Source: Paramesorhizobium deserti (GTDB lineage Bacteria; Pseudomonadota; Alphaproteobacteria; Rhizobiales; Rhizobiaceae). Taken from it: 64,000 nt of DNA. This document shows, in pieces, positions 4,860 through 61,975 of this stretch. Each line of letters opens with the position of its first letter. Positions within the stretch are counted from its first letter, which is position 1. The stretch lies in the NCBI RefSeq assembly GCF_001558695.1, contig NZ_LNTU01000001.1, positions 310,001 to 374,000 on the forward strand, written 5' to 3'. The translations under genes and the position numbers were made by a program. A model generated the notes under the pieces. The model ran no database searches and had not been told where the DNA came from. It saw only the letters and a list, made by a program, of their open reading frames with translations.

Positions 4860-5560
4860 TTCCCGTCCTTCCAGGCCTTGTAGCGGGCCTTCGTCTCGTC
4901 ATTCATCGGATAAAGGCCCGGCAGCGGCACGCCGCGATCGACCTCGGTCATGATCCAGGCTTCCATCCGCTCCTGCTCGGGCGCTTCGGCGAGCACGGCA
5001 TCGAGGAATTTGGCGGGAATGAGCACTGCCCCGTCCTCATCGACCACGACGATATCATCGGGGAAGACGGCGACGCCGCCGCAGGCGACCGGCTGCTGCC
5101 AGGCGACGAAGGTGAGGCCCGCGACGGAGGGAGGAGCGGCGACGCCGTTGCACCAGATCGGCAGTCCCGTGCCCAGCACGCCTTCGGCATCGCGCATCAC
5201 GCCATCAGTGACGAGGGCCGCCACGCCGCGCTTCTTCATGCGCGAGCAGAGGATATCGCCGAAAATGCCGGCATCGAGCACGCCCATGGCGTCCGCCACT
5301 GCGACGCAGCCCTCCGGCATCGCCTCGATCGCCGCGCGGGTGGAGATGGGCGAGGCCCAGCTTTCCGGCGTGGCGAGATCCTCGCGGGCGGGCACGAAGC
5401 GCAAGGTGAAGGCCGGGCCGACCACCCTGCCCTGGCTCGGCTGCAGCGGCTTGGTGCCGCGCATCCAGACATTGCGCAGGCCCTTCTTCAGAAGCACCGT
5501 GGTCAGCGTAGCGGTGGAAACGCCTTTCAGCGTCTCCACGATTTTCGGATCGAGAGACAT
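4856..5560 (-). CDS. RraA family protein (4-hydroxy-4-methyl-2-oxoglutarate aldolase-like)
   Basis: A 234-residue RraA/HMG-aldolase-fold protein. The family motif with Arg-Asp is seen as LVTDGVMRDAEG (about residues 119-130), followed by GLPIWCNG and a PDDIVVVDEDGAVLIP strand pair. Family members are metal-dependent aldolases/decarboxylases of 4-hydroxy-2-oxo acids; only enterobacterial RraA inhibits RNase E. Coupling with a DapA-superfamily aldolase favours a catabolic role over RNase regulation. The ribosome site AAGGAG lies about 8 nt before the ATG. Confidence 0.85.
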   Translation of the reverse strand: MSLDPKIVETLKGVSTATLTTVLLKKGLRNVWMRGTKPLQPSQGRVVGPAFTLRFVPAREDLATPESWASPISTRAAIEAMPEGCVAVADAMGVLDAGIFGDILCSRMKKRGVAALVTDGVMRDAEGVLGTGLPIWCNGVAAPPSVAGLTFVAWQQPVACGGVAVFPDDIVVVDEDGAVLIPAKFLDAVLAEAPEQERMEAWIMTEVDRGVPLPGLYPMNDETKARYKAWKDGK

Positions 5561-5732
5561 AGAAACTCCTTGATATCGGCGTGGCTGGTGCCCGCGCGGG
5601 GCGCATCATGCCCGCCGCGAACGAAAATGCAATCCTGTGCTGTAGCGCAACTTCAGGGGATCGAAAGAGTTTGGGCCTGATGACGCGGTTTTGAAAAAGG
5701 CGTGCCACGACGCCCAAGCATAGGGAGAAATA

Positions 5733-6572
5733 ATGGCTTTCGAACAGCGCTCTTCATCACGCAGGGAAAGGTTCACATTCGGCGTTCCGCTGATCGCGCG
5801 GGAGGCGGCATGCGATTGGGGGCGCGTCAACGATCTCATTTCTCTAACGCTGCGCTCGGTGCTCGCCCAGGGCGACCGCGACTTCCGCCTTATCCTTGCC
5901 GGCCACGACCTGCCGCCGTGCTGGCACGAGCTCACACGGGGCGATCCGCGCTTCCATTTTCTGCAGGCCGATTGGCCAGTTGAGCGCCCGAGCGCCGCCA
6001 ATGACGATGGCGGAAGCAAGAAGTGGCGGATCAAGGAGGCGGTCAGGCGGGAGGGCGGCGGCCTGCTGATGTATCTCGATGCCGATGATCTCGTCGGGCG
6101 AAACCTGGTGGAGACGGCGCGCCGGCTGATCGGCCCGGGCCAGGTCGGTGGGGTGATCGACAAAGGATTTGTAATCGATTTCACCTCCTTATGCGCCGCC
6201 AAACTGCCTGACTCCCGCATTTTCGACGGTGATTTCCATCATCTCTGCGGGTCGAGCACCATCGCGAGGATCGAGCCGGACAGCCTCGATGCGATGCGGC
6301 GCGACCCGCATCGGGAATTGGGCTCCCATCATGTCTGGCTTGAAACGGCGGCGGAGGCGGGCGTCGATATCGTCCGTCTACCGGTGCCGGTCGGCTATCT
6401 CGTCAATACCGACGAGAACCATTCGGAAAATCACGGACCCTATGCCGGATGGCGCCGCGACTTCAACAGGGCCGTGCGAACGTTCGGCCGGCCGATCGAG
6501 GACGATATCGCCACGCGTTTCGGGCTGAGCCGCGCGCTCCTGGAAGCCAAAGCCTTCGCCCGCGCCCTGTGA
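5733..6572 (+). CDS. Putative GT2-like glycosyltransferase
   Basis: A 279-residue soluble protein with features of a GT-A fold. Residues about 15-60 hold TFGVPLIAREAACDWGRVNDLISLTLRSVL and the DxD-like metal site is LMYLDADDLVG near residue 115. A later HENHSENHG-type segment may bind substrate. The ribosome site AGGGAGAA lies 5 nt before the ATG. It sits just upstream of the inositol cluster on the same strand but is separated from it by a promoter at 6601. Acceptor and donor are unknown; it could work with the cluster or alone. Confidence 0.6.
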   Translation: MAFEQRSSSRRERFTFGVPLIAREAACDWGRVNDLISLTLRSVLAQGDRDFRLILAGHDLPPCWHELTRGDPRFHFLQADWPVERPSAANDDGGSKKWRIKEAVRREGGGLLMYLDADDLVGRNLVETARRLIGPGQVGGVIDKGFVIDFTSLCAAKLPDSRIFDGDFHHLCGSSTIARIEPDSLDAMRRDPHRELGSHHVWLETAAEAGVDIVRLPVPVGYLVNTDENHSENHGPYAGWRRDFNRAVRTFGRPIEDDIATRFGLSRALLEAKAFARAL

Positions 6573-45029: not shown

Positions 45030-45532
45030 GGAAACACCCGGGAAAACCACGCGGACCAAGCTCGGCAATCCCGGCGGTGGATCACCGTAGACGGTTTCAG
45101 AACGGGGATTCGCAGTGAAAGAAAATCGGGCTCGGACATGACTCTACGCTTTCGCTCAACGGCAAATGAGCAGGAGTCATCAGCTTCATCGGGGAAGCGG
45201 TTCGGCCATTTCCGGCCCGGCAGAATCCATTGCCGCATCGATTACAGCCAATCGCGTACAATAACGGCGGGATTTCTGTCAATATCGACCGTACTGTCGG
45301 TCGCACAGCCGGCCGGCATCTTCTCGCGCGAATTCAGGGATTTGCCGGTCCACAAACGGCCGGAACCGGCTGATCATAATTCTGGGTGCGAAGCCGTTTC
45401 AGGGGCTTGATTGAAACGGCAAATGTGCTAGAAGGCGGCACCGAACGGGACGCGGTTCACCGAACCGCCCCCAAAAAGCGTACCCAACCCGCTTTTCCCG
45501 TTCCGTCTAAAACGTTGAAGGCATTGGCGTTT
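45030..45532. other. Intergenic region between crcB operon and tRNA-Gln
   Basis: About 500 bp without a convincing gene. It should hold the leftward crcB promoter and, at its right end, the tRNA promoter (45407-45434). Several short inverted repeats (CTCAACGGCAAATGAG, CGGTTCACCGAACCG) are present, but nothing that I can name. Confidence 0.5.
45407..45434 (+). promoter_or_regulatory. Candidate tRNA-Gln promoter
   Basis: TTGATT, 16 nt, TAGAAG, resembling alphaproteobacterial tRNA promoters with a -10 of the TAGAAG type. The tRNA begins about 98 bp downstream. Confidence 0.45.
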
Positions 45533-45606
45533 TGGGGGATAGTTTAAGGGTAGAACAGCGGACTCTGACTCCGTTAGTCTTGGTTCGAATCCAGGTCCCC
45601 CAGCCA
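45533..45606 (+). tRNA. tRNA-Gln (CTG)
   Basis: Complete cloverleaf: acceptor TGGGGGA/TCCCCCA with discriminator G and encoded CCA, anticodon stem GCGGA/TCCGT around loop CTCTGAC (anticodon CTG), and T-arm with canonical TTCGAAT loop. Its 3' half is the integration site of the downstream element. Confidence 0.95.
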
Positions 45607-45607
45607 C
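45562..45607 (+). repeat. attL: 46-bp repeat in tRNA-Gln 3' half
   Basis: Matches 61930-61975 in 43 of 46 positions by eye. It runs from the anticodon loop to one base past CCA. The intact tRNA is on this side. Confidence 0.88.
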
Positions 45608-45764: not shown

Positions 45765-45789
45765 AAAAAAACCCCGCCGACAGCGAGGT
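45765..45789 (-). terminator. Intrinsic terminator of the tRNA-like gene
   Basis: Read leftward: 7-bp stem ACCTCGC/GCGGGGT, 5-nt loop, then a run of seven T. It lies about 25 bp past the CCA end of the tRNA-like gene, as expected for a transcribed RNA gene. Confidence 0.75.
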
Positions 45790-45813
45790 TTTCTTGGTGG
45801 TGCCGTTTATAGA

Positions 45814-45890
45814 TGGTGCCCGTGGCAGGGATCGAACCTGCATGATCCGTTTACGGCTCACGCTTTAGAAGAGCGCGCCGGTACACGGGC
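45814..45890 (-). tRNA. tRNA-Arg(TCT)-like gene lacking a D-arm
   Basis: A 77-nt sequence with a perfect 7-bp acceptor (GCCCGTG/CACGGGC), discriminator A and encoded CCA, a perfect T-arm (GCAGG/CCTGC) with loop TTCGATC, and an anticodon arm GCGCT-CTTCTAA-AGCGT with anticodon TCT. Between acceptor and anticodon stem only seven nucleotides (TACCGGC) remain, so no D-arm can form. An 18-nt variable region holds GCCG, which can pair with CGGC to extend the anticodon helix, or fold as CCG-TAAA-CGG. Followed by a strong terminator. May be a real odd tRNA, a mimic or a degraded gene. Confidence 0.6.
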
Positions 45891-45895
45891 AAACT

Positions 45896-46150
45896 TTATG
45901 CTGCGGCGAGGCGCTCCCCCTTCTCGGCAGCTAACTCTGCCCACAGGGCGCTCAGTGAATCCTCGGCCTCAGCGGCCAACGCCCTTAGAGTGCGCAGGAG
46001 CATGTTTGCCTTCCTACAATTGCCTCTCGCCTTCTCATCCAAGATTTCCAGAAGGTCAGCAACTGCGGAGATGTCCCCGAGCGCGGCGGTTAGACGATCC
46101 TCGGCACTCGATGATCCGACGTCCCCAATCTGAAACGACCTGTTAAGCAT
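45896..46150 (-). CDS. Small element-encoded hypothetical protein
   Basis: An 84-residue, mostly helical, acidic protein (AEDRLTAALGDISAVADLLEILDEKARG, LRALAAEAEDSLSALWAELAAEKGERLAA). ATG 46150 has GAGGAG 8 nt upstream; the longer frame to 46252 runs through the operator region. It stops 5 nt before the tRNA-like gene on the same strand, so the two are probably cotranscribed. No family recognised. Confidence 0.5.
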   Translation of the reverse strand: MLNRSFQIGDVGSSSAEDRLTAALGDISAVADLLEILDEKARGNCRKANMLLRTLRALAAEAEDSLSALWAELAAEKGERLAAA

Positions 46151-46187: not shown

Positions 46188-46240
46188 ACATAATGTCCAA
46201 CATCGAATTCCATGTCAACACAAAATCCAACGTTGGACTT
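46188..46240. promoter_or_regulatory. Operator region between divergent small genes
   Basis: A perfect 12-bp palindrome TCCAACGTTGGA (46226-46237) and a second site sharing GTCCAAC (about 46194-46202) lie between the leftward 84-residue gene and the XRE regulator at 46242. Likely binding sites of that regulator. Confidence 0.5.
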
Positions 46241-50795: not shown

Positions 50796-52796
50796 TTAGA
50801 ATGGGCGCGTGCGTGGCTGCGACACACGCATATCGGCTTGCGCCCATGCGTGCGATTTGAAGTCCGAGCTATTTTTCCAGATGTTGATTCCTTGCGAAAC
50901 GCCCTGCTGCACCATCGCCATGATCTCCTGATTGCCATTTGCGCCGGAGACATTGACATTGATTGTAGGGGAATTCGTCGTAGAGTTGTTCGTGGTCATG
51001 TTCGCCAAGCTTGGTATTCGCGGCGCCTGTAAGGGAGAACCTCCTGCAACCAATCCACCGTTAGCTAGAGCAATATCCTTCCCGGAATTGATTGCATTCA
51101 GAAGCTTGAGATTCTGCTTTGTCGCTGCGGCATTTACCACGAACTCCCCATCGCTGAGGCGCGCCGGTATACTGTCGCTGCGAGGGCCTCCGGGACCGCG
51201 GATCTGGCCTCCTGTAGCCGCGTGGACGATACCGCCTTTGTCGAAGCCGAGGAGTTTCAGGAAACTGAAACCTGCTCCCCCGCTGGCCTTTGTGTCAAAC
51301 AGGCCGTCGAACGCCAGATCAAGCAGCTTGTCACCGATCTTCGAAAGCGCATCTGCAAATACGTCAGCTGCCTTTCGTCCCTCAATAAATCCGTCCACGA
51401 TGCCGCGCGTGAGCCCCTTCTGGAACTCGGCCATTTCTTCGGCTTTTTCTGCAGCCTTGTCGATCGCAATCGATAGGTTGGCATACTCCCCCGCAAGGGT
51501 CTTCAACTGCGCCGTTTGCTCTGGCGTCAGCTTGATTCCGCGCTGTGCGGCGGCATTCAAAAGATCCTGCTCGAAGCGAAGTTTCTCCGCCTCGACCTCC
51601 GTGAGGCCAAGCGCTTGTTGTTCTACCTTCAAGGTCTCGATACGGCCGCGCGCGGCGATGACGATCTGATTGTAACTTTTGGCAAGTCTCTCAGCCGCAA
51701 GAGCGTTTTTATCGCTCTTCGAACCGCCACTACCGCCAGGCGGGAGGATGGAAGGTTTCCCCGGTTTTTCTGGATCGGCGGTCGGTAATTCAACGGCCTT
51801 CATCGAGGCCAGCGTCGTTTTGAGCCCTTCCAGCTCATCACGATAGCGGGCGATGGCGGCCGTGTTCCCCTCGAACGCGGAAGGCAAGGCGTTCGGGAAC
51901 TGTGCACGCGCATCAGCTTCGAGCTTCTGCAGCCGGTCGATCTCGCTTTGAATCGTGGAAATGCGTGACTCAATCTGCTCGGCGGTACGGGCGCCGATAA
52001 GCTGAGGCGAATTGGCGAAGTCCCGCAGCGCCGCAACCACCGAAACGATAGCTCCCTTTACCTGCGTGCCAACCGTTCGTGCGATTTCGGCAAATTTGTC
52101 GTTTATCTCCTGCGCCTTGGCGATCAGTTCGTCATCCAAGACGGCACCAGCGTCTTGCGCACGCTGCATTAACGCCTCGATGCCGCCGCTTCCCTCCTTC
52201 AACAGGCCAAGAAGTTCTGGCCCGGCCGCACGGCCGAAGGCGCGCACTGCGAATTCGAGTTGTTCCTGTGGCGTGCGCGCGTTTTTTACGAGATCCGCAT
52301 AGGATTTGAAAAGATCGAGCGTAGGTTTGATCTTGCCTTCTGAATCCTGGAAGGCGACGCCATTAGCCCTCAAAACCTTATAAAGTTCGCCACCCTCACC
52401 GGACGCATCGGCGAGGCCGGAGGCAAACCTCACCAGACCGGTTGTAACCGCCTCTGCGCTGCCCTTCGCCTGTTCTGCGGAGAATTGCAATGCCTGGAGT
52501 GTCGACGCTGTAACTCCGACGCGCTGCGCCTCATCACCTATTTTAGCCAGTGCTGATGCAGCTGACTGCGCACCAGAGACAATCGCGCCAAAACTCAACC
52601 CACCAGCCACGCCGGCGAGGAGGCCCTTGCCGAAATTTGACATCGATGCGGATATGGTTTTGTTGAGCTTTGAAAATCGATTTTCGATTTGCTTAGCGCG
52701 CCGGTTCGTCTCACCATTTGCTCTGGCAAGGGCGCGTTCGTAGCCTTTGATATCCGCGCTAAGCTGGACAACCAGCCGTTCGATGTCAGTTGCCAT
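50796..52796 (-). CDS. Phage tail tape measure-like protein
   Basis: A 666-residue protein of the tape-measure class. It opens with ERLVVQLSADIKGYERALARA, then long alanine-rich coiled coils, a glycine-rich hydrophobic patch (GKGLLAGVAGGLSFGAIVSG), and a C-terminal FDKGGIVHAATGGQIRGPGG..SDSIPARLSDGEFVVNAAA, a pattern found in many tail length proteins. Short for a siphophage tape measure, so it would set a short tail if used. ATG 52796 chosen; its start overlaps the 65-residue gene upstream. Confidence 0.85.
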   Translation of the reverse strand: MATDIERLVVQLSADIKGYERALARANGETNRRAKQIENRFSKLNKTISASMSNFGKGLLAGVAGGLSFGAIVSGAQSAASALAKIGDEAQRVGVTASTLQALQFSAEQAKGSAEAVTTGLVRFASGLADASGEGGELYKVLRANGVAFQDSEGKIKPTLDLFKSYADLVKNARTPQEQLEFAVRAFGRAAGPELLGLLKEGSGGIEALMQRAQDAGAVLDDELIAKAQEINDKFAEIARTVGTQVKGAIVSVVAALRDFANSPQLIGARTAEQIESRISTIQSEIDRLQKLEADARAQFPNALPSAFEGNTAAIARYRDELEGLKTTLASMKAVELPTADPEKPGKPSILPPGGSGGSKSDKNALAAERLAKSYNQIVIAARGRIETLKVEQQALGLTEVEAEKLRFEQDLLNAAAQRGIKLTPEQTAQLKTLAGEYANLSIAIDKAAEKAEEMAEFQKGLTRGIVDGFIEGRKAADVFADALSKIGDKLLDLAFDGLFDTKASGGAGFSFLKLLGFDKGGIVHAATGGQIRGPGGPRSDSIPARLSDGEFVVNAAATKQNLKLLNAINSGKDIALANGGLVAGGSPLQAPRIPSLANMTTNNSTTNSPTINVNVSGANGNQEIMAMVQQGVSQGINIWKNSSDFKSHAWAQADMRVSQPRTRPF

Positions 52797-52983
52797 GCAT
52801 GCGCTCCTCGCCCCAGACCTCCAGGAGGGCATCCGCTGCGGCATGCCTGCCGGTGGCAACCGAATATATTGCGAGCGCTTGGCAAATCAGCGTGTCGGCC
52901 ACTTCTGCGGCAGGTATGCCAGCCGTCAGCATGGCACGCGTCAGCGTATGCATGGCGGTACGCGCAGTTTCTTTAATATCCAT
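52786..52983 (-). CDS. Small phage protein upstream of tape measure
   Basis: A 65-residue helical protein (ETARTAMHTLTRAMLTAGIPAAEVADTLICQALAIY) that overlaps the tape-measure start by 11 nt. In phages this slot holds the tail assembly chaperone. ATG 52983 with AGGAAAATCC. Assignment from position only. Confidence 0.6.
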   Translation of the reverse strand: MDIKETARTAMHTLTRAMLTAGIPAAEVADTLICQALAIYSVATGRHAAADALLEVWGEERMHGN

Positions 52984-53155: not shown

Positions 53156-53659
53156 ATGCCCGAATGGCTGACGAAACTATTTTCACTATCTCAAGAGATC
53201 AGTTCCAAAGTGGCGCTTCCCATGTTTTTGGCCACGACTGCCATTCTATTTCTTCCCGACGAATACGCTTCGCGAATTGGCATTGACGAACTGCGCGGGC
53301 AATATCGGCTCTACATCGGATTGATATTGGTTATTGGGGGGACAGCGCTTGCGTCCAATTTACTTTGGGCGATAGGCGGCTTTATAAAACCGTATCTCAA
53401 GGAAAGGGTTTGGCTTTATCATCGTCGCAAAGTTCTATTAGATCTCACGAATGATGAAAAGGCAATACTACGCTGCTTCATCTTTGATGGTCGCTCAGAG
53501 GTACATGCGGATATATCCAACGGCACAATAAATCTGTTGGAAGGAAAAAAGATTGTCACGCGTGCGTCAAGTGTATCATCGCTTAACATGAAGTGGGCGT
53601 ATTTAATACATCCATGGGCAAGAACGTACCTTAAGAAGCATCCAGAACTTCTTCATTAA
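53156..53659 (+). CDS. Superinfection exclusion protein B-like (SieB family)
   Basis: A 167-residue membrane protein with two N-terminal hydrophobic segments (about residues 19-35 and 51-75), then a soluble part beginning LLDLTNDEKAILRCFIFDG, the region typical of SieB-type proteins. SieB aborts lytic growth of some competing phages from a lysogen. It is the only rightward gene inside the leftward phage operon and has its own candidate promoter, as expected for a lysogenic-conversion gene. The DNA is more AT-rich than its neighbours. Confidence 0.72.
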   Translation: MPEWLTKLFSLSQEISSKVALPMFLATTAILFLPDEYASRIGIDELRGQYRLYIGLILVIGGTALASNLLWAIGGFIKPYLKERVWLYHRRKVLLDLTNDEKAILRCFIFDGRSEVHADISNGTINLLEGKKIVTRASSVSSLNMKWAYLIHPWARTYLKKHPELLH

Positions 53660-54848: not shown

Positions 54849-55174
54849 GGCGCAGCCTGCGTGCCGTGGCTAGCCTCTAAGGCGTCCAGTCTCGCCGCGA
54901 TCAATGCGATGCGGCTGTCCGCATAAGCAAGGGCATGGCGCGCCGCGGCAGCAATCGTGTCTAGGCTGTCGGTAAGCCAAGTGTCGATTTCCTGCCACTT
55001 TGCGTCCAACGCGGCTTCAACATCGTTGCCAGAGGCGCCAACGGCATCCAGCTTCGCGGCCTCGTCATCTAGCAACTGCTGCGCCCATCGTGCAGCGCTG
55101 ACGGCGGCGATTGCCCACGCCGGTTCGTCGCCGTCGGCTATCAATTGATCTATCTCACTCATTGCTGTGCTCAT
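54845..55174 (-). CDS. Small helical phage protein, paralogue B
   Basis: A 109-residue protein related to the following 80-residue product, with an extra C-terminal helix (DSRIALIAARLDALEASHG). Coupled by 4-nt overlaps to the prohead protease upstream and to its paralogue downstream. Function unknown. Confidence 0.62.
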   Translation of the reverse strand: MSTAMSEIDQLIADGDEPAWAIAAVSAARWAQQLLDDEAAKLDAVGASGNDVEAALDAKWQEIDTWLTDSLDTIAAAARHALAYADSRIALIAARLDALEASHGTQAAP

Positions 55175-55779
55175 CCTTTGTCTCCCAATCTGACAACGCG
55201 GCCTGTCTTCACACCACGGACAACGTGCGGATTGATCCGCGGCGGCTGTTTGTCGAGTTTAACGACACGGTCGTTTCGCAGTTTCACAACGTGAACACGC
55301 TCGATACGCGCGGTGGCCTTCCTGGCGGCTCTATCCATGGCTTTGACTGAAGTAAGCGTGGCCTCAGCGTTCGCGGGGATGGTCACACTGGATAGCTCAA
55401 GCCACTCCCATTTTGTGAATTTGACTCCAAACGATCCAGGAATAGCTTCGGTTTCCAAGCCCCTGAAGCCTATCGACAGACCTTGCACCAGCCCGGCTTT
55501 AATCAGTCTCCACGCCCGATCGATCTCTTCGGACACGTTTTTGGCAACGTGCGCGACGATCTCGATTCCGGCCGTGGTTATTTTGGCCTTGGTGACATGA
55601 CCGATGGGCTCCGAATGATTGTGCTGCCAAAGCAACGGAAGCGGCAGCTTGAAAACCGCACCCTCCGGGAGGACAATATCGTCCATCCGATCTGGCGACG
55701 GGGTGGATGCAATCCCGGTAATGACGCGCTGGTCGTCGTCAATGTTTTTGATGTCTAGAAGTGAATAAGCTCGATTCAT
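55171..55779 (-). CDS. HK97-family prohead protease
   Basis: A 202-residue serine protease of the HK97 prohead type (herpesvirus assemblin fold). Conserved blocks: GIASTPSPDRMDDIVLPEG, LPLLWQHNHSEPIGHV with the catalytic His, GLVQGLSIGFRG with the catalytic Ser, and WEWLELSSVTIPANAEATL. ATG 55779 has GGAAGGGACG upstream. It normally trims capsid and scaffold; the major capsid gene that usually follows is missing. Confidence 0.9.
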   Translation of the reverse strand: MNRAYSLLDIKNIDDDQRVITGIASTPSPDRMDDIVLPEGAVFKLPLPLLWQHNHSEPIGHVTKAKITTAGIEIVAHVAKNVSEEIDRAWRLIKAGLVQGLSIGFRGLETEAIPGSFGVKFTKWEWLELSSVTIPANAEATLTSVKAMDRAARKATARIERVHVVKLRNDRVVKLDKQPPRINPHVVRGVKTGRVVRLGDKG

Positions 55780-56363
55780 TTTGCGTCCCTTCCATCGCGG
55801 CCGGCTTTGACCATGAGTTGCCAACCATCGGACGCGCCGGGCCTCTCACCCTCCGGCACATCCTTTACCGCACACCAAGCGCTGCCGCCGTCCGTGACGA
55901 CGCTGCCTTGTTTGTAGGCCATGGCCTTCTGATGAACGCCCATGTATTTCAACGCCCCGCTCGTCGCGGCAAACGACCGGTCCACATAGCCCTTGACAGC
56001 ATCGCCCAGCTTGTCGAGTCCCTCCTCCAGCGCCTTCATCTGACTTGCCTTATGTGCCGCGAAGTTTTTTTCCCAGACGGCGCTCATGGCCGCGATTCTG
56101 CGCTCTACTACGCCGGCAAGATCGATGGGTGGCGTAATTCCAAGATCCTCGGGCAGACCCGCCGCAACGTTGGCGCGTTTGGTGCGCAGAATATCCACCT
56201 GTTCTTCCAATGCTTCGGCTCGCATTGAAGCGGCGCGCTGGGCGACTTCGCCCTCGTTTTCGCCGGCCTCTCTGGCGGCGGCGGTGCGCGCGTGGTCCGC
56301 CCAGAACGCCTCATCGGCGGCTTTTATTTGGCGGTCGAGTTCCGCCAGTCTCTTTGTATCCAC
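55776..56363 (-). CDS. Phage coiled-coil protein with C-terminal binding module
   Basis: A 195-residue protein. The N-terminal two-thirds is helical/coiled coil (ELDRQIKAADEAFWADHART, EALEEQVDILRTKRANV, KALEEGLDKLGDAVKGYVDRS). The last ~50 residues (YKQGSVVTDGGSAWCAVKDVPEGERPG..DGWQLMVKAGRDG) resemble the small carbohydrate- or surface-binding module seen at the ends of phage structural proteins. Coupled by 4 nt to the protease. Confidence 0.6.
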   Translation of the reverse strand: MDTKRLAELDRQIKAADEAFWADHARTAAAREAGENEGEVAQRAASMRAEALEEQVDILRTKRANVAAGLPEDLGITPPIDLAGVVERRIAAMSAVWEKNFAAHKASQMKALEEGLDKLGDAVKGYVDRSFAATSGALKYMGVHQKAMAYKQGSVVTDGGSAWCAVKDVPEGERPGASDGWQLMVKAGRDGRDAK

Positions 56364-60686: not shown

Positions 60687-61868
60687 ATGGCTGTACGAGA
60701 ACGCGTATGGACAACCAAGGGCGTCGAGAAAAAGGCATGGGTGTGCGATTACTTCGACCAGAAAGGCAAGCGTCACCTCAAGACCTTCAGGACTAAAAAA
60801 GAAGCGGATGCATTCGATTCAAAAACCCATATCGAGGTGTTGGGCCGCATCCACGTCGCGGACGCTGATACCGTCACAGTCGAGAAGGCGGGCGAACTCT
60901 GGCTGGCGGCATGCGATGGCGACCTGGAGCGCTCGACGGTCGATCAATACAAACAACATGTCGAGCTTCACATTAACCCCTTCATCGGCAAGAAGCGGCT
61001 GAACGAGATGACCGTTCCAGCCGTGCGCCACTTCCTCGATACTCTGAAGAGCGAAGGCCGTTCCGTCGCGATGGTCCGCGCGGTTCGTGTGAACCTCGGC
61101 GCTATGCTTTCCGACGCCCAGGAGCGCGGCCTTGTTGTGGTGAATGCGGTGAAGGCAAAGGGGCGCGCAAAGGGGCGTCAGCACGCAGAGGCGCGACATA
61201 AGAAGAAGGTCGAGGTAGGAATAGACATTCCCACCTCCGCCGAACTCAAAGCCATCCTCGCCGCTGCAGAGGGCAAGGCCCGTGCCTTCATTTTGACAGC
61301 CGCCATGACGGGTATGCGCGCTTCTGAGTTGCGCGGGCTGCGATGGGGCGATGTCGATTTCGTCCGCGCTGAAATCACAGTCCGGCAACGCGCTGATGCC
61401 TATCTGGAGATGGGTAGCCCTAAATCCAAGAACGGTCGCCGCACAATCCCCCTCCCCGGCCCGCTCGTCGCGGCGCTGAAGGAATGGAAGCAGGATTGCC
61501 CGAAAGGTGAACTCGGGCTTGTTTTCCCATCGGGCACGGGCGCCATTGAGTATCACAGCAACATCGTGCACCGTTGGTATCATCCGCCCCAAATCGCCGC
61601 TGGCGTATCGATCGACACCGGAAAGCGGGACAAAGACGGAAGTCCGATACTGAAACCGAAATACACTGGCCTTCATGCGCTGCGTCACTTCTACGCAAGC
61701 TGGTGCATCAATCGACCGATTGACGGCGGCCTGGGGCTACCAGCGAAAGTTGTTCAAGATAGGCTTGGGCATTCCTCGATCACGGTCACATTGGACACCT
61801 ACAGCCACCTGTTCGAACGGGGGGACGATGGGTCATTGATGGACAAAGCCGCCGCCGCATTTTTGTAG
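60687..61868 (+). CDS. int: Tyrosine recombinase (integrase)
   Basis: A 393-residue phage-type integrase. N-terminal AP2-like arm-binding region (WVCDYFDQKGKRHLKTFRTKKEADAF), SAM-like core-binding domain (STVDQYKQHVELHINPFIGKKRLNEMTVPAVRHFLDTL) and catalytic domain with Arg in GMRASELRGLRWGDVD, HxxR in GLHALRHFYAS and Tyr in LGHSSITVTLDTYSHLF. GGAG ribosome site. Its stop lies 62 bp from attR. It should recombine the tRNA-Gln site. Confidence 0.95.
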   Translation: MAVRERVWTTKGVEKKAWVCDYFDQKGKRHLKTFRTKKEADAFDSKTHIEVLGRIHVADADTVTVEKAGELWLAACDGDLERSTVDQYKQHVELHINPFIGKKRLNEMTVPAVRHFLDTLKSEGRSVAMVRAVRVNLGAMLSDAQERGLVVVNAVKAKGRAKGRQHAEARHKKKVEVGIDIPTSAELKAILAAAEGKARAFILTAAMTGMRASELRGLRWGDVDFVRAEITVRQRADAYLEMGSPKSKNGRRTIPLPGPLVAALKEWKQDCPKGELGLVFPSGTGAIEYHSNIVHRWYHPPQIAAGVSIDTGKRDKDGSPILKPKYTGLHALRHFYASWCINRPIDGGLGLPAKVVQDRLGHSSITVTLDTYSHLFERGDDGSLMDKAAAAFL

Positions 61869-61929: not shown

Positions 61930-61975
61930 ACTCTGACTCCGTTGGTCTTGGTTCGGCTCCAGGTCCCCCAGCCAC
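61930..61975 (+). repeat. attR: displaced copy of tRNA-Gln 3' half
   Basis: 46-bp match to 45562-45607 with three differences: one in the anticodon-stem side and two in the T-loop, where TTCGAATCC has become TTCGGCTCC. No tRNA 5' half precedes it. Confidence 0.88.

Follow-up and report, generated by a model that had tools for sequence, protein, structure and literature searches.

The window, which is the stretch of 64,000 nucleotides analyzed here, contains on its minus strand a tRNA-Arg(UCU)-like gene without a D-arm, which is 77 nt long as read from the sequence and ends with an encoded CCA (Table 1). The acceptor stem, T-arm, CCA, CTTCTAA anticodon loop, and 7-nt linker claimed by the original prediction are all present. 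Both strands of the acceptor stem are encoded, and the anticodon stem, GCGCU/AGCGU, has five pairs including one G-U. Stem lengths of 7 bp in the acceptor, 5 bp in the anticodon arm, and 5 bp in the T-arm, together with loops of 7 nt, are those of a cloverleaf; between the acceptor and anticodon stems, the 7-nt linker is found instead of a D-arm. Folding gave a minimum free energy of −30.9 kcal/mol with a z-score of −2.9. The arginine identity elements C35 and U36 are present, and so is an A following a GG dinucleotide, but in a moved place.

Table 1. Coordinates of the D-armless tRNA gene, of its surroundings in the window, and of related genes overlapped by ARAGORN calls
Feature	Position	Strand	Basis or remark
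D-armless tRNA-Arg(UCU) gene with encoded CCA	45814-45890	−	5' end at 45890; sequence, fold, model R1, relatives
Acceptor stem, 5' strand GCCCGUG	45884-45890	−	Pairs 7/7 with 45818-45824 (CACGGGC); helix covaries
Linker UACCGGC, 7 nt, in the place of the D-arm	45877-45883	−	C11 G12 G13 (45880-45878) form a core helix strand and covary with 45856-45854
Anticodon arm, anticodon UCU (AGA codons)	45860-45876	−	Loop CUUCUAA
Variable region, 18 nt, GAGCCGUAAACGGAUCAU	45842-45859	−	Core strand CCG (45856-45854), UAA, GGA (45848-45846)
T-arm GCAGG-UUCGAUC-CCUGC	45825-45841	−	5/5 pairs; sequence and covariation
Acceptor stem, 3' strand, and ACCA	45814-45824	−	Sequence
Terminator hairpin and run of U	45766-45797	−	Fold −27.6 kcal/mol, z −5.6
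84-aa ORF	45896-46150	−	Ends 5 nt before the tRNA gene
Sigma-70-like promoter TTGACA-17-CATTAT, upstream of the 84-aa ORF	46190-46218	−	Consensus match only
Host tRNA-Gln(CTG), integration site	45533-45606	+	ARAGORN
Left attachment repeat, 3' half of tRNA-Gln	45562-45607	+	46-bp direct repeat, 93% identical
Right attachment repeat	61930-61975	+	46-bp direct repeat, 93% identical
Tyrosine integrase of the element	60687-61868	+	PF00589 6.7e-19, phrog_1 8e-68
Tail tape measure protein of the prophage	50796-52859	−	phrog_17300 5e-51
Prohead serine protease	55171-55824	−	PF04586 3e-11
D-armless genes overlapped by ARAGORN calls	L039:2807-2885, L110:5502-5574, L142:3192-3264, L196:983-1056, L249:1690-1763		ARAGORN on whole loci

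The mobile element on which the gene had been placed is a small prophage of 16.4 kb, and the D-armless tRNA gene is part of its cargo. It is bounded by the two attachment repeats and encodes an integrase, tail and head proteins, and a helicase-like ATPase. The G+C content is 56.2% in the prophage and 62.7% in the window outside it. AGA was expected to be commoner in phage genes, and its share of the arginine codons is 9.1% in the element (16 mechanical ORFs) and 3.9% elsewhere in the window (41 ORFs). The bacterial host genome of 5.5 Mb possesses ordinary tRNA-Arg genes for UCU, CCU, CCG, and ACG, and since UCU is among them, the prophage gene adds dosage there and not a new specificity. An integration-related mimic, as considered in the original prediction, or a tRNA fragment left by integration was rejected because the attachment repeats represent the 3' half of tRNA-Gln, a different gene. 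Two other features were observed in this region, a gene for a SieB-like superinfection exclusion protein in the prophage (53156-53659, plus strand; PF14163, 2.5e-27) and a fluoride riboswitch just before the prophage (45164-45243, minus strand; RF01734, 46.4 bits).

A terminator of its own had also been claimed for the gene and was located as a stable hairpin downstream, although this hairpin is absent from the list of a simple terminator scan. Because the 84-aa ORF ends so close upstream of the tRNA gene and a promoter-like site precedes it, both are probably transcribed together. This arrangement, the terminator, and a relative of the ORF on a Phyllobacterium salinisoli locus (tblastn E value of 6e-7, two pieces of 26 aa) would be in agreement with a regulatory tRNA mimic directed at the preceding small ORF, a T-box-like target, or ArgRS regulation. 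In the same tblastn search, the ORF had no match better than an E value of 3 in 17 other loci, some of them partial or copies, and at least one ordinary tRNA gene accompanies the D-armless genes on 140 of the 181 loci described below, which makes such a mimic very improbable.

Standard tools passed over the gene. ARAGORN reported only the tRNA-Gln in the window, and an Rfam scan of the window at the gathering threshold yielded only this tRNA-Gln and the fluoride riboswitch. When its own genome was searched directly with the Rfam tRNA model, the gene reached 35.6 bits (threshold, 29), the second-lowest of 45 matches. At a permissive threshold, tRNA-Sec (RF01852) was the Rfam family that matched best in the gene region. 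This identity was rejected: the 29.2 bits are below the gathering value of 47, the acceptor branch is 7/5 and not 8/5, the D-arm is missing, and the anticodon is the arginine anticodon UCU instead of UCA.

Relatives of the gene and their detection

The same build was found by blastn in four other genomes of the bacterial family, G005, G021, G023, and G055, with a 90% identical copy in the congeneric genome G005, and more distant copies, 79% identical over the match, occur in named phages. Limnohabitans phage DC31 and Mycobacterium phage Azrael100 carry the D-armless build unannotated, the latter between annotated tRNA-Gly and tRNA-Gln genes; phages Cosmo and EniyanLRS gave the same blastn match, at the level of the match only. 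A homologue with a normal D-arm would have spoken for a simple deletion in the window copy. The D-arm was absent in all six blastn relatives inspected, those of the genome loci L003, L004, L005, and L006 and of the phage loci L021 and L022, so a simple deletion does not explain the gene. A deletion copy of the host tRNA-Arg was likewise rejected, because the ordinary UCU gene of the host differs throughout the body and the relatives share the build. The D-armless Arg gene at L005:1501-1578 has an anticodon loop of eight nt (ACUUCUAG) if its stem is taken as five pairs.

Matches were present in 19 genomes, 14 of which had only matches of 29 to 37 nt over the T-arm and acceptor stem and were set aside. 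Two of these 14 were inspected (L007 and L020), and they and a similar match in the host itself (L002) proved to be ordinary tRNAs. The phage matches H5 to H10 were also short and set aside (H5 and H9 were inspected), and the plasmid collection contained no match to the window gene.

Pattern scans of viral contigs gave many more genes of this build, and the size of the family was assessed with a structural scanner on 309 sequences (2.59 Mb). It returned 372 raw matches, some of them misread ordinary tRNAs, compared to a single match in the reversed sequences. These included 223 distinct rows with two or more core pairs, which are pairs between the linker and the variable region, and 215 rows remained after removal of eight with odd anticodon loops. 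Thus, there are at least 215 distinct D-armless sequences in which the three ordinary stems (acceptor, anticodon, and T) occur together with two or all three of the core pairs. They are spread over at least 181 loci, composed of at least 173 viral contigs and eight other loci; with identical copies included, at least 222 viral loci carry a D-armless gene. Patterns and scanner required a short linker, and the missing D-arm in this set is by construction, so that the 215 sequences indicate how common the build is and not that D-armed relatives are absent. Moreover, related phages are not independent, and the loci are partial contigs.

The anticodons of these at least 215 sequences are TCT (108), CCT (42), TAT (27), CAT (14), CCG (11), ACG (5), TCG (4), GAT (3), and CTT (1), counts from scans that were not even-handed between anticodons. 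Some patterns chiefly caught the CCG group, in which C34 is combined with a purine at position 36, along with chance matches that were eliminated by the stem scanner. CCA is encoded in 112 of the 223 rows. The Streptomyces phages Gilson and Comrade contain one high-scoring D-armless gene each, which is not annotated while a neighboring tRNA-Arg is. Less common variants were a Lys(CTT) gene at L087:11004-11080 (minus strand), an Ile(TAT) gene at L040:1215-1290 (minus strand), Ile(GAT) genes at L108:4514-4589, L188:11632-11707, and L234:310-386 (plus strand), and 14 CAT genes with GGU and A73 on viral contigs, e.g., L188:11809-11884 and L225:4043-4118.

The family is rare in whole genomes. The covariance model R1 matched in 3 of 397 genomes of the order (G000, G097, and G318) and in 1 of 398 genomes of a phylum sample, that of the window itself, with stricter filters in these searches that can lose weak matches. 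Exact copies of D-armless genes were present in 8 of 21 stretches from the genome scan. Matches in Sulfurospirillum and others, which resemble 23S rRNA, had no tRNA stems and were dropped.

The R1 score of the window gene, 78.8 bits with an E value of 4e-18 in the window, is partly by construction because the gene is among the 87 rows of the model; in the host genome, it was followed by an ordinary tRNA with 33.3 bits. The Rfam tRNA model at its gathering threshold found 3 of 18 D-armless genes on six loci. ARAGORN in its bacterial mode called none of the 215 genes with the right 5' end, and two mitochondrial settings called 39 and 40. When run on whole loci, it overlapped 5 of the 215 with a tRNA-Arg call of the same anticodon but with other ends (Table 1); these five were counted as D-armless, and the overlapping calls were left out of the ordinary sets. 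Bacterial viruses contain a large family of D-armless tRNAs that seems to have gone unreported so far.

Core helix and GG motif

The 18-nt variable region had been considered able to pair with the linker. In the core helix, three nucleotides of the linker (positions 11 to 13) pair with the three nucleotides of the variable region that precede UAA or UAG. A fair test of this helix needs to be based on genes from a pattern that leaves both core strands free, with no core filter applied. This pattern had 74 distinct matches, and the scanner found all three ordinary stems in 67 of them. Three of three core pairs were formed in 51 of the 67 genes, two in 15, and one in a single gene, compared to a mean of 32.6 genes with three pairs and a maximum of 40 when the partners were shuffled 5,000 times. 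With the commonest core left out, 13 of 29 genes had all three pairs, and the shuffled sets had 3.1 with a maximum of 8. The cores include the pair types CGG/CCG, CTC/GAG, CCC/GGG, CAC/GTG, and CGT/ACG. A UGG/GCA subgroup, 14 of the 29 genes with less common cores, might also be interpreted as a helix of four pairs in which one G is bulged.

Columns 12-40 and 13-39 were paired in 87 of 87 representatives, with 14 and 26 double changes, respectively, and columns 14-38 in 71 of 87, with 18 double changes; the resulting 93.9% of paired core cells refers to a set in which some cores were fixed by the patterns and from which rows with no more than one core pair were left out. Compensatory changes, also seen in the genes whose core strands the pattern left free, indicate that the helix between linker and variable region is real and conserved, and the pairing proposed in the original prediction holds. 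They also bear on a possible decay of the genes, which would be functionless deletion copies of ordinary tRNA genes. Fragments of tRNA genes are described as common at integration sites in a passage of PMC9897764, but the attachment fragment of this prophage comes from tRNA-Gln and not from tRNA-Arg, the helices are maintained by compensatory change, and all three ordinary stems were present in the 67 of 74 matches to a pattern that fixed no stem. Decay is, with these data, hardly conceivable.

Downstream of the core strand and the UAA or UAG, the variable region continues a few bases on with GG. Among 160 genes collected with patterns that left this place open, 159 had the GG no more than 5 bases from CCGUA. 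The base following GG is an A in 111 of 118 genes with an Arg anticodon; in 42 Ile/CAT-type genes, it is U in 38, G in 4, and A in none, with two misregistered rows taken as Ile-type in this count. Position 73 is an A in 44 of 44 Ile/CAT-type genes, and U or C in 46 of 170 Arg-type genes; A or G at position 73 is listed for tRNA-Arg in a section of the review PMC9976931. The same source gives A20 as the main determinant for ArgRS of E. coli, unique among the tRNA families. The ordinary tRNA-Arg(UCU) of the host contains GAUGGAUAGAGC in its D-arm, with UGGAU as in the window gene. Because GG plus A matches G18 G19 A20, with A20 as the ArgRS determinant, the GGA of the variable region would represent these three bases in a new place, and the D-loop motif seems to have been moved. 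The parts of the D-arm look moved and not lost. For the functional minimal tRNA of the original prediction, this means that function is the best supported of the three readings offered there, but with a length of 77 nt, "rearranged" fits better than "minimal."

The following architecture may result. Nucleotides 11 to 13, the opening strand of the D-stem, would find their partners in the three nucleotides that follow the anticodon stem, and the D-stem would thereby merge with the anticodon stem into a single, longer hairpin. The D-loop motif known from ordinary tRNA-Arg would come next, as a segment of the form UAAn(n)UGGAU, and lead into the T-arm. Its GG is probably docked on the T-loop in the manner of G18 and G19, and the A after GG may act as A20, the main ArgRS determinant. 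Once charged by the ArgRS of the host and accepted by EF-Tu and the ribosome, the D-armless tRNA would decode AGA in phage genes. For this explanation, we infer transcription, processing, tertiary docking, charging, and decoding.

The docking could be probed at the 19-56 tertiary pair. GG was found in 213 of 213 genes with C56, a count for which rows had to show GG or GA, and the patterns behind most genes demanded C56. It had been predicted beforehand that genes with U56 should have A19. The one new gene, L363, did not follow this prediction but has U56 with GG kept, which leaves a possible G-U pair, and A19 together with U56 was present in only two similar genes. Alternatively, the tRNA may be used in decoding with a floppy core like mitochondrial D-armless tRNA-Ser, and GGA may be conserved for a reason besides docking on the T-loop. 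The case of L363 agrees with such a core, as does an engineered D-armless tRNA that works without a D-loop substitute, according to the part of PMC11551756 that deals with it. The GG close to CCGUA in nearly all genes, A19 in the two genes with U56, and the switch of the base after GG between Arg and Ile argue against it, and a floppy core seems unlikely but deserves some weight. The retained GG and T-loop speak for a contact resembling that between D-loop and T-loop in an ordinary tRNA.

Comparison with known tRNAs

Ordinary phage tRNA-Arg genes share with the D-armless genes the acceptor, anticodon, and T arms, often the CCA, the anticodon loop, and UGGAU. Both are often located beside other phage tRNA genes, with the decoding of AGA, AGG, or CGN as the apparent job. 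The difference is the missing D-arm, with the partner strand of the D-stem and the D-loop motif placed after the anticodon stem.

Mitochondrial D-armless tRNA-Ser (AGY/UCU), as outlined in parts of the review PMC7609411, also has a short linker for the D-arm and the other arms present. In contrast to it, the phage genes have anticodons of the Arg and Ile type, a conserved core helix, the GG motif, a canonical T-loop, and a normal overall length, and they originate from bacterial viruses; the window gene is encoded in the prophage of a bacterial genome and not in a mitochondrion. The phage genes are a variant of tRNA that is new here and not a member of the mitochondrial type. The engineered E. 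coli mini HisT likewise lacks the D-arm (Edelmann et al. 2024, PMC11551756), and its description there includes acceptance of this tRNA-His by HisRS, EF-Tu, and the ribosome of E. coli. Mini HisT, however, is a man-made 62-nt deletion for His with no substitute segment, and the window gene is natural, 77 nt long, and has a rearranged core.

The same 2024 paper states that every bacterial tRNA known so far is a cloverleaf and that only mitochondria possess tRNAs with missing arms. The words "phage" and "virus" do not occur in the main texts of this paper and of PMC7609411, a 2020 review of non-canonical tRNAs, and the papers listed in searches of open-licence PMC full texts included no report of D-armless phage tRNAs. 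If phages possess a large family of natural D-armless tRNAs, the published statement would be overturned and need revision. Such a family would also show how a tRNA can be built with another order of strands, and it would provide a natural test of which recognition parts of ArgRS and IleRS are geometric.

Anticodon sets and decoding

The 181 loci differ in their content of ordinary tRNA genes, with five or more on 69 and none on 41. Both kinds of Arg genes occur together on 51 loci, and only 1 of 71 D-armless Arg genes there repeats an ordinary Arg anticodon of its own locus. When the sets were permuted among the loci 20,000 times, a mean of 24.3 repeats and a minimum of 12 resulted. Reduced to 28 distinct combinations, 1 of 42 was a repeat compared to 13.0 expected, and the permuted sets never had fewer than 4. 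The sole duplicate is on L159. Ordinary Arg anticodons were repeated among themselves in 0 of 95 cases. Since the loci are parts of contigs, a repeat located elsewhere could be missed by these counts. From their sequences, the D-armless Arg genes appear to supply the missing Arg anticodon of phage tRNA sets.

This picture of filled slots is weaker for Ile than for Arg. The three D-armless GAT genes all duplicate an ordinary GAT gene on the same locus, and the CAT genes cannot be separated from Met by the anticodon. By analogy, the D-armless CAT genes are probably isoleucine tRNAs that need lysidine. A TAT tRNA was absent in six of the seven CAT-gene loci with five or more ordinary tRNAs.

Codon usage was counted in mechanical ORFs of at least 150 aa over three whole named phages. 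Comrade uses AGA 264 times and AGG 174 times; its D-armless gene has the anticodon UCU, and its 34 ordinary tRNAs include Arg GCG, TCG, and CCT but no UCU. In Azrael100, AGG (150) is more frequent than AGA (49), the D-armless gene has CCU, and the Arg gene among the 23 ordinary tRNAs has ACG. DC31 possesses 172 AGA and 24 AGG codons, a UCU D-armless gene, and six ordinary tRNAs, none of them for Arg. Counts of phage tRNA genes would have to be corrected, with genes overlooked in annotation filling apparent AGA/AGG gaps such as those of Comrade and Azrael100.

Phages carry tRNAs against tRNA-cleaving defenses. The D-armless genes could serve as decoys or sponges, another possibility raised in the original prediction: processed like tRNAs, they would absorb anticodon nucleases, tRNA-cleaving defenses, or ArgRS without decoding. 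The conservation of the anticodon arm and, in half of the rows, of an encoded CCA while the body has changed would fit this function. Missing Arg slots that are filled with duplicates avoided, anticodons matching the preferred AGA or AGG codon in three phages, and the switch between A and U after GG with the amino acid are expected of decoders, and a decoy leaves the slot filling and this switch unexplained, so that decoys are improbable. The D-armless genes most likely encode working decoding tRNAs, and the window gene very probably represents a working phage tRNA-Arg that reads AGA on a rearranged D-armless plan.

With a good, somewhat lower probability, cytoplasmic tRNAs have two natural plans. 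The second would be present on at least about 200 phage contigs and comprise tRNAs for Arg with five anticodons, for Ile with UAU, GAU, and probably lysidine-CAU, and perhaps for Lys. In this second plan, the partner strand of the D-stem and the D-loop identity motif would be located 3' of the anticodon stem, with docking and synthetase identity kept, and its tRNAs would be normal members of the decoding set that standard finders miss.

Several D-armless genes may occur on one contig. Three of them are arranged in tandem on L042 (UCU, CCU, and CCG), and L081 contains four (UCG, ACG, UCU, and CCU). L042 also encodes on its plus strand (2182-2254) a tRNA of the ordinary fold with the anticodon TCA, which reached 63.4 bits, was named SeC by ARAGORN, and may read UGA there. 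On the viral contig L081, a bacterial class A RNase P RNA was found at positions 5521-5849 of the minus strand with 146.8 bits.
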